A DNA stretch of 64,000 nucleotides from Runella sp. SP2 (GTDB lineage Bacteria; Bacteroidota; Bacteroidia; Cytophagales; Spirosomataceae): NCBI RefSeq assembly GCF_003711225.1, contig NZ_CP031030.1:7308501-7372500 (forward strand), in the 5' to 3' direction. A program made the translations under genes and the position numbers. Shown here one piece after another: positions 47,100 through 48,289 of the stretch. The notes below the pieces were generated by a model that made no database searches, was not told where the DNA came from, and saw only the letters and a list, made by a program, of their open reading frames with translations. The number at the start of each line of letters is the position of its first letter. Within the stretch, counting starts at the first letter, position 1.

Positions 47100-47174
47100 A
47101 AAAAACCCTTTCTCAACGTGAGAAAGGGCCTTTTTACTATAAAGGTTTCCTTTCTCACATGACCTGTGTGAGAA
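47100..47174 (-). promoter_or_regulatory. Leucine attenuator: alternative RNA hairpins upstream of leuA
   Basis: On the minus strand: segment 1 TTCTCACA (47174-47167), segment 2 TGTGAGAAAGG (47159-47149), segment 3 CCCTTTCTCAC (47128-47118), segment 4 TGAGAAAGGG (47115-47106). Pairings: 1:2 is 8 bp, 2:3 is 10 bp (GTGAGAAAGG/CCTTTCTCAC), 3:4 is 10 bp with a 3-nt loop and six T residues (47105-47100), an intrinsic terminator. Segment 1 overlaps the Leu codons of the leader peptide and its stop codon lies in segment 2. This is the classical ribosome-mediated attenuation layout. Confidence 0.85.
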
Positions 47175-47208
47175 GAAGACCGAGAATATTATTAGATGCT
47201 AATGTCAT
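47155..47208 (-). CDS. leuA leader peptide (attenuation)
   Basis: ATG 47208 opens a 17-residue peptide, MTLASNNILGLLLTQVM, ended by TGA at 47157-47155. Five of 17 residues are Leu, three of them adjacent (CTT CTT CTC, codons 11-13), plus one Ile and one Val. It sits ~36-40 nt after the predicted transcription start and is followed by the four-segment attenuator. Ribosome stalling at codons 11-13 would cover segment 1 and leave segment 2 free to pair with segment 3, preventing termination. Confidence 0.8.
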   Translation of the reverse strand: MTLASNNILGLLLTQVM

Positions 47209-47249
47209 AAATTGTGTTGCGAATTTTCGCTGTACGCGTATTTCTTCTA

Positions 47250-47280
47250 CAAAAATAGCGGAATAATTTTTTGGTGCAAA
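47250..47280 (-). promoter_or_regulatory. Promoter of leuA leader transcript
   Basis: On the minus strand TTTG (47280-47277), 19-nt spacer, TATTTTTG (47257-47250), an exact fit to TTTG-N19-TAnnTTTG. The predicted start near 47244 places the leader peptide at once downstream. Confidence 0.75.
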
Positions 47281-47398: not shown

Positions 47399-48289
47399 AT
47401 GAAACCCCGCTTTTTGTTTATTTTTCTCCTAACTATTGGTATGGAAGTTACTTTTGCCCAAACGCCACTTTTCAATTGGCAAGGCCACCGTGGCTGCCGT
47501 GGATTGATGCCCGAAAACACCATTCCCGCGTTTTTGAAAGCACTCGACTACGGAGTGAATACCTTAGAGTTGGATGTCGTTATTTCTAAAGATAAGAAAG
47601 TAGTCGTTTCGCACGACCCTTATTTTCACGCCGACTTTTCGATAAAACCCGATGGTACACCCGTACCAAAGAGTCCCAAAATTGTGTTGTACGACCTCAA
47701 TTACGACGAAATTAAACGCTACGATGTGGGCAGCAACGGAAACCCGAATTTTCCTGAACAACAAAAACAGAAGACCTACAAGCCGCTTTTAAGCGAGATG
47801 ATTGAGGCCGTGGAGGTGTACCGAGTTAAAAACAAACTGCCGCTTTTTTTGTACAACATCGAAATCAAGAGCGAAGAAAAAGAATACGATAAGTCGCAGC
47901 CACAACCTGCAGAGTTTTCGGACTTGGTCTATCGGGAAATCATGGCTCAATTACCACCCGAACGGATTGTTCTCCAAAGCTTTGATTTCAACGTTTTAAA
48001 ACATTGGAAGAAACAAATCGACGCGGGCAAGTACAAAAAAGTAGCCTTGTCGGCGCTGGTCGCCAATGCCAAAGGGATTGAAAAAAACATCGAGGATTTA
48101 GGGTTCACCCCCGACATTTACAGTCCTTACTATTTATTACTTTCGACGGAACGGGTGCAGCAGCTTCACAAGATGGGAATGCAAGTGGTGCCTTGGACGG
48201 TAAATACGACCGAAGAAATGCGCAAAGTGAAGGCCATGGGCGTCGATGGCATTATTACGGACTATCCCAATCGCATCCCGAAATCCTGA
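47399..48289 (+). CDS. Secreted glycerophosphodiester phosphodiesterase
   Basis: A 296-residue exported GDPD/GlpQ-type enzyme (signal peptide ending TFAQ). The catalytic HRGCRGLMPENTIPAF gives the first His and Glu, NTLELDVVISKD the metal Glu and Asp, VVVSHDP the second His; YNIEIKSEEKEY carries the third metal Glu, and VVPWTVNT plus GIITDYP close the barrel. It cleaves glycerophosphodiesters to glycerol-3-phosphate and an alcohol in the periplasm. Divergent from leuA. A TAGTTTTG (47366-47373) may be its -7 box, without a clear -33 element. Confidence 0.93.
   Translation: MKPRFLFIFLLTIGMEVTFAQTPLFNWQGHRGCRGLMPENTIPAFLKALDYGVNTLELDVVISKDKKVVVSHDPYFHADFSIKPDGTPVPKSPKIVLYDLNYDEIKRYDVGSNGNPNFPEQQKQKTYKPLLSEMIEAVEVYRVKNKLPLFLYNIEIKSEEKEYDKSQPQPAEFSDLVYREIMAQLPPERIVLQSFDFNVLKHWKKQIDAGKYKKVALSALVANAKGIEKNIEDLGFTPDIYSPYYLLLSTERVQQLHKMGMQVVPWTVNTTEEMRKVKAMGVDGIITDYPNRIPKS

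Follow-up and report, generated by a model that had tools for sequence, protein, structure and literature searches.

Upstream of leuA in Runella (Bacteroidota, Cytophagales, Spirosomataceae), a short leucine-rich reading frame stands before a terminator, and the locus raises the question of whether transcription of this gene is set by leader-peptide attenuation, a classic mechanism. The enterobacterial leu operon attenuator (leuL; Leu_leader in Rfam) has a Leu-rich leader, alternative 1:2, 2:3 and 3:4 pairings and a terminator before leuA, all of which are also found at the Runella locus. The window (the whole stretch of DNA that was analysed, 64 kb of the Runella genome, G000:C1:7308501-7372500) differs from the enterobacterial case in its Bacteroidota-type promoter, in a palindrome before the leader, in a leuA that stands alone, since its 5' neighbour, at 47399 on the plus strand, is divergent and its 3' neighbour is also on the opposite strand, and in a leuB that lies elsewhere in the genome, in a minus-strand row with ilvD.

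Layout of the leuA leader region

Along the minus strand, a TTTG element is followed after 19 nt by TATTTTTG, then by the palindrome AGCGAAAATTCGC, the ATG and stop codon of the leader, the terminator and leuA (Table 1); TTTG/TAnnTTTG is the promoter consensus of the Bacteroidota. The leader MTLASNNILGLLLTQVM has five Leu among its 17 codons, three of them adjacent (47178-47170), also carries Ile8 and Val16, and is too short to appear in an open reading frame list with a minimum of 20 aa. The promoter, the 17-residue leader with its five Leu residues, the four segments able to pair as 1:2, 2:3 and 3:4, the T run, and the placement of the Leu codons in segment 1 and of the stop codon in segment 2 had all been claimed by a sequence-only reading of this DNA, and each of them was located on the minus strand. 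The terminator, which lies between the leader and leuA, has a stem of 12 pairs and the T run, and the RNA from 47230 to 47090 folds at -41.4 kcal/mol (z -5.28), with none of 200 shuffles as stable. Generic scans returned numbers near chance: the sole promoter-like site (47116-47088) was inside the terminator (1.2 expected), the terminator hairpin was called on the plus strand only (0.6 expected), and no promoter-like site was seen at 47280-47250, the scan consensus being that of sigma-70, which is not expected to apply here.

A T-box, a riboswitch or a similar RNA device would be favored only by the presence of a terminator and is scarcely credible, as no Rfam family reached its gathering score in the window, where 12 matches at E ≤ 10 were all under the cut-offs of their own families, or in the 14 of the 80 upstream leuA loci that were searched. 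Leu_leader itself did not reach its gathering score in the window, nor did Bacteroid-trp (RF01692), a trp attenuator, provided that its model is in the Rfam copy used.

Table 1. Positions of the leuA control region in the window and of the other amino-acid leaders in the same genome.
Feature	Position	Strand	Basis or detail
-33-like promoter element TTTG	47277..47280	-	sequence; 19 nt spacer to -7 element
-7 promoter element TATTTTTG, fits TAnnTTTG	47250..47257	-	sequence; 49 nt 5' of leader ATG
Palindrome AGCGAAAATTCGC, candidate operator, early transcribed region	47219..47231	-	conserved GCGAAWWTTCGC
Leader peptide MTLASNNILGLLLTQVM and stop	47155..47208	-	ATG 47208, 17 codons, stop TGA 47157-47155
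Segment 1, holds three adjacent Leu codons	47167..47178	-	1:2 hairpin -14.2 kcal/mol
Segment 2, holds leader stop codon	47149..47158	-	2:3 hairpin -17.8 kcal/mol
Segment 3	47118..47127	-	folding and alignment
Segment 4, terminator 3' arm	47106..47114	-	3:4 hairpin -15.7 kcal/mol
Terminator T run, six T	47100..47105	-	sequence
leuA, 2-isopropylmalate synthase, 385 aa	45884..47041	-	NCBIfam and Pfam profiles
Trp-Trp-Trp leader and terminator at trpE-like gene	L149:1625-1755	-	sequence
Tandem ilvD attenuators	L147:17450-17830, G000:C1 ~7096949-7097329	-	sequence

Conservation, covariation and folding of the leader

Relatives of LeuA were sought in genome contigs, and the best 80 of the 376 found, together with the window, gave 81 upstream regions. 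A Leu-rich leader with a terminator occurs in 61 of these, 49 being of the type seen in the window (Runella, Dyadobacter, Telluribacter, Rhabdobacter, Persicitalea, and MAGs) and 12 of a second type, mostly from Bacteroidales MAGs. A strict detector was passed by 51/81 leuA upstream regions, the window's among them. It demanded a terminator, preceded at -5 to 60 nt by the end of a short ATG frame; three or more Leu among the last 14 codons of this frame, two of them within six codons; and seven or more pairs in a 2:3 helix. The same detector was passed by none of 2000 dinucleotide shuffles of the window upstream region, none of 800 shuffles of the regions and one of 458 upstream regions of other genes. 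Window-type leaders contain at least two Leu in 49/49 cases and at least three in 48/49, all six Leu codons are used across them, and Leu makes up 200 of the 733 residues after the start in frame (the other two frames give 55 and 31 of 733), an excess that is inflated because the frames were picked by a Leu-favouring score (the innermost ATG was taken, and L027 and L036 were set by hand); the detector controls are unaffected, because the same selection was applied to them. A TAnnTTTG element lies 46-61 nt 5' of the leader ATG in L003-L011, L020, L022, L043, and L045, and the exact motif is absent from the corresponding place in most Dyadobacter loci.

The remaining 20 regions are without leader and terminator; in 10 of them an ORF the size of leuB, on the same strand, ends 10-81 nt before leuA, one (L072) has just 144 nt of upstream sequence, and three (L023, L059, and L081), in which a terminator and some frame are present but the Leu number 0-2, were scored as leaderless. 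In L023 (Dyadobacter arcticus), the stretch from the promoter to the leader start has seemingly been lost, with segments 2-4 and the terminator retained. The second-type leaders (L060, L065-L067, L073-L078, L080, and L082) stand upstream of a LeuA of 497-498 aa and mostly have a core like HILLLGIIILLQNK, from which L073 and L077 diverge; 8/12 miss the seven-pair antiterminator rule.

The window LeuA has Runella strains as its nearest named relatives (99% identity, among the best 80 of 376 relatives), matches NF002086 (2-isopropylmalate synthase) above the cut-off and TIGR00973 below it, and contains only the Pfam domains HMGL-like and HCS_D2. The C-terminal LeuA_dimer (allosteric) domain is absent, and leucine feedback at the enzyme level may thus be absent as well. 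LeuA is 384-385 aa long in the 49 loci with a window-type leader and 497-498 aa in the 12 Bacteroidales-type loci with a leader; where the domain was checked, the 497-aa relative L066 (Bacteroidales-type) has LeuA_dimer and L010 (short kind) is without it. A tie between the attenuator and loss of the feedback domain was considered and dropped, since the long LeuA also has leaders.

Pairing was followed in an alignment (A1) of 48 rows, one for the window and 47 drawn from the 52 loci L003-L054; it omits L013, a near copy of L012, and the leaderless L023, L048, L050, and L051, and its window row, which starts at 47223, is short of the first seven columns. Of the cells of helix 2:3, 86.8% are paired and 34 show changes on both sides (shuffled mean 15.7, 0/500 as high; slid controls at most 10), and the covariation score of this helix likewise spoke for covariation. 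For example, pair 89:130 occurs as AU in 24 rows, GC in 14 and GU in 10, and is broken in 0/48. Other measures of this helix were not above chance, with four pairs changed on both sides against a shuffled mean of 3.4 (221/500 as high, and four also in one slid version) and 16 pair types against 16.8, and breaks occur in its two outermost pairs in 26/48 rows. For helix 3:4, pairing is present in 91.8% of cells, five pairs vary on both sides (shuffled mean 1.8, 7/500 as high) and there are 16 pair types (shuffled mean 13.3, 20/500 as high); cells changed on both sides number eight, against nine in one slid version, and the innermost pair is broken in 30/48 rows. As the rows are related, the shuffle numbers are not probabilities. 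RNAalifold on the same alignment displayed 3:4 and the palindrome, and 2:3 is missing from it because one structure cannot hold 2:3 beside 3:4. The covariation thus lends moderate support to stems 2:3 and 3:4; of the alignment check that the sequence-only reading had proposed for upstream leuA regions, the conservation of Leu-rich leaders with a terminator was borne out, whereas the covariation of the two stems appears by some measures but not by all.

Just 3' of segment 2 (columns 95-106 of A1), a stretch like GGTTTTGCAT or GGTTATGTTTTGA is seen in Dyadobacter, Telluribacter, L011, and L049 and is absent from the window. It resembles the his pause, and it is perhaps an RNA polymerase pause site.

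The effect of the ribosome was modeled by masking -15 to +15 of the P site (assumed edges) and folding the RNA as segment 3 just emerges. With Leu9, 11, 12 or 13 of the window leader in the A site, P(2:3) is 1.00, and with the stop codon there it is 0.00. The same holds in 46/49 window-type leaders in the sense that P(2:3) reaches 0.8 or more at some Leu and stays at 0.2 or less at the stop, the low value at the stop being partly built in because the search for the 2:3 helix began 15 nt upstream of the stop codon's end in these 49 leaders and in the trp and ilvD folding described below. The other three reach a best P(2:3) of only 0.57-0.73, and values are often low for Leu codons near the stop. 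In the folding model, a ribosome stalled at the regulatory codons thus frees an antiterminator that is exclusive with the terminator. In ribosome-free RNA of the window before segment 4 emerges, 2:3 is preferred over 1:2 (P 1.00), so that an untranslated leader terminates only if 1:2 forms first. In the complete leader at equilibrium, 3:4 wins in all ribosome states tried, with P(2:3) at most 0.23, and, as the classic model also has it, the choice must therefore fall with RNA polymerase still in motion. On this folding, both the 2:3 versus 3:4 and the 1:2 versus 2:3 outcomes would need the order of synthesis, and not stability, to decide them.

Taken in sequence, RNA polymerase would start ~35-40 nt 5' of the leader ATG with a ribosome following. 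When leucine is ample, the ribosome would reach the stop codon and cover segment 2, and 3:4 would form as the terminator; when leucine is short, it would stall at Leu11-13 over segment 1 and leave segment 2 free, and 2:3 would form once segment 3 emerges, so that transcription continues into leuA. In an untranslated leader, 1:2 would form first and lead to termination. The region is very probably a transcription attenuator of the ribosome-mediated kind, through which the level of charged leucyl-tRNA would govern the reading of leuA.

Two other explanations bear on the same evidence. The hairpin could be an ordinary or bidirectional terminator of a neighbour gene, with the short frame arising by chance, and T-rich sequence does lie beyond the hairpin on both strands, while many Dyadobacter loci have an ORF the size of leuB on the same strand, ending ~260-300 nt before leuA. 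In the window, however, the upstream gene is divergent, so the leader hairpin ends no other gene, and neither the detector result nor the footprint geometry would be expected of a plain terminator, which makes this explanation very improbable. Sensing of branched-chain amino acids generally, and not of leucine alone, is unlikely: Ile8 and Val16 accompany the five Leu of the window leader, and in the 12 Bacteroidales-type leaders 52 of the 246 residues are Ile and 64 are Leu, but in the window's own group Ile accounts for 78 residues against the 200 Leu, and a stall at Val16 would, by the assumed footprint, cover segment 2.

Other leaders and a palindrome shared with ilvD and aceB

The genome holds further leaders of the kind. 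A Trp-Trp-Trp leader, MNPNVKNTSWWWRSSFPR, stands with a terminator just 5' of a trpE-like gene, whose best NCBIfam match is TIGR00564 (anthranilate synthase component I) at 422 bits, below the cut-off of 517.7. Two tandem Ile/Val-rich leaders, MIIRTKNSVILVSIITPSTV and MFNITGVVVVLIISTQTV, with cores VILVSII and VVVVLII and each with its own terminator, precede ilvD, which passes its profile cut-off; the second of them was read by eye and then confirmed as a frame. In the footprint folding of the trpE-like and both ilvD leaders, a ribosome waiting at the main cognate codons leaves 2:3 free, and one at the stop hides it. No leader of such a kind was seen at hisG of the same genome. The match of Leu codons with leuA, Val/Ile codons with ilvD and Trp codons with trpE speaks more strongly than any other evidence for these being amino-acid attenuators, and it suggests that one genome may use leader attenuation for leucine, isoleucine/valine and tryptophan. 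Together with the conserved leaders and the geometry found in relatives, these cognate codons favor the attenuation reading made earlier from the bases.

A palindrome, AGCGAAWWTTCGC, sits between the leuA promoter and the leader. Its conserved form GCGAAWWTTCGC lies at most 330 nt from leuA in 50/81 regions, namely in the window, in L051 and in 48/48 loci with a window-type leader (the 52 loci L003-L054 minus L023, L048, L050, and L051), and was not found near leuA in L023, L048, L050, and L055-L082; its four outer pairs are invariant (47 rows). The exact motif was sought in 23 genomes and every place was followed up. It stands before leuA in 13 genomes, before aceB in six (G000, G001, G004, G013, G018, and G021), the aceB of the Runella genome passing the malate synthase A model, and before ilvD in two (G013 and G014). 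Similarly, ilvD of the Runella genome has a one-base variant of the palindrome between its two tandem attenuators, and ilvD of G013 has the whole module of TATATTTG, palindrome, leader MNISKLVNIVLVVILLSCIV and terminator. The remaining copies are inside or near unrelated genes, and the motif occurs genome-wide at mostly one to four places per genome (five in G013), against zero to four for the reversed control. AGCGAAWWTTCGC was seen in Spirosomataceae and some other Cytophagales, including at L085, L090, L110, L153, and L166, and these places form a candidate regulon.

In three genomes (G013, G014, and G021), the motif adjoins a gene that encodes an XRE regulator carrying an M78 (IrrE-like) domain. 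Such a gene is present in 18/23 genomes, 16 of which have the motif before leuA, aceB or ilvD, the two others being G015 and G005, the latter with a short draft contig; the five genomes without the gene, all from other families, have the motif before none of the three genes. The candidate in the Runella genome (G000:C1:738700-740118) has HTH_3 and a marginal Peptidase_M78 match (22.4 bits, cut-off 22). A protein of the ScfR/RamB kind (ScfRs domain PF09856) was also considered as reader of the palindrome and was rejected, with no PF09856 match in the Runella genome.

The shared palindrome suggests a second control of leuA, at the level of DNA, and we infer that it may be a repressor site read by the XRE/M78 protein. 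It might conceivably act as an RNA hairpin instead, against which stand the four outer pairs that never vary and its place before aceB of the Runella genome, which by reading of the bases is at the -33 region, outside the transcript. A repressor at the palindrome could even be the main control of leuA, with the attenuator minor or a relic. The presence of the palindrome at every locus with a window-type leader, its occurrence before aceB and ilvD and beside the XRE/M78 gene in three genomes, and L051, which has kept it and shows no attenuator, would all suit such a repressor, but Leu-rich leaders, terminator and 2:3 helix are kept across genera, unlike what would be expected of a relic, and a main role for the repressor is rather improbable. 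With the attenuator as the preferred reading, the palindrome between promoter and leader would probably add DNA-level control, perhaps via the XRE/M78 regulator. For Spirosomataceae this can be extended, with the chances about evenly balanced, to a two-layer module (promoter, operator, leader, and terminator) at leuA and ilvD, in which the operator would be read by an XRE/M78 regulator that also controls aceB, the leader would fine-tune expression via charged tRNA, and the glyoxylate shunt and leucine synthesis would have their consumption of acetyl-CoA set jointly.

Known attenuators and meaning for Runella

In the open-access literature, no characterised leucine attenuator in Cytophagales was found. 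A 2010 survey by Lopatovskaya and others, cited in PMC4833913, may include Bacteroidetes. In the same year, the authors of PMC2965389 stated that they knew of no attenuation by leader peptides demonstrated beyond Proteobacteria and Actinobacteria, and they added Firmicutes. Within the phylum, strong clues for leader-peptide attenuation upstream of amino-acid operons have been described in Flavobacterium psychrophilum (PMC9723704), a case that shares with Runella the phylum, the amino-acid operons and the proposed leader peptides, whereas the species belongs to a different class of the phylum and leuA has no occurrence in the main text of that article. Short frames reminiscent of leader peptides are mentioned for Bacteroides thetaiotaomicron (PMC7366714). 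In addition, Bacteroid-trp (RF01692), a Bacteroidetes motif, is listed as likely cis-regulatory (PMC2864571), and it has the Bacteroidetes in common with the Runella leader, whereas the operon differs, going by its name. In Staphylococcus aureus, a Leu-rich attenuator peptide and the DNA-binding regulator CodY are described for branched-chain synthesis (PMC5794164), which likewise joins a Leu-rich peptide with a DNA-binding regulator, but in another phylum and with CodY in the place where an XRE/M78 protein is the candidate in Runella. The unusualness claimed by the sequence-only reading therefore holds for the order, as far as leucine and the open-access papers go, and not for the phylum, where attenuation had already been proposed in Flavobacterium psychrophilum and Bacteroid-trp had been listed, according to the passages cited.

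The leuA leader is thus well supported, on comparative sequence grounds, as a probable case of classic attenuation, a mechanism already predicted elsewhere in the phylum. What appears to be new here, and is the less expected part, is the palindrome AGCGAAWWTTCGC shared by leuA, ilvD and aceB together with a possible regulator. The analysis gives comparative support at the level of bases for classic attenuation in an order in which no characterised case was found, bears on how transcription and translation are coupled beyond Proteobacteria, and directs attention to a regulator that may link leucine synthesis with the glyoxylate shunt.
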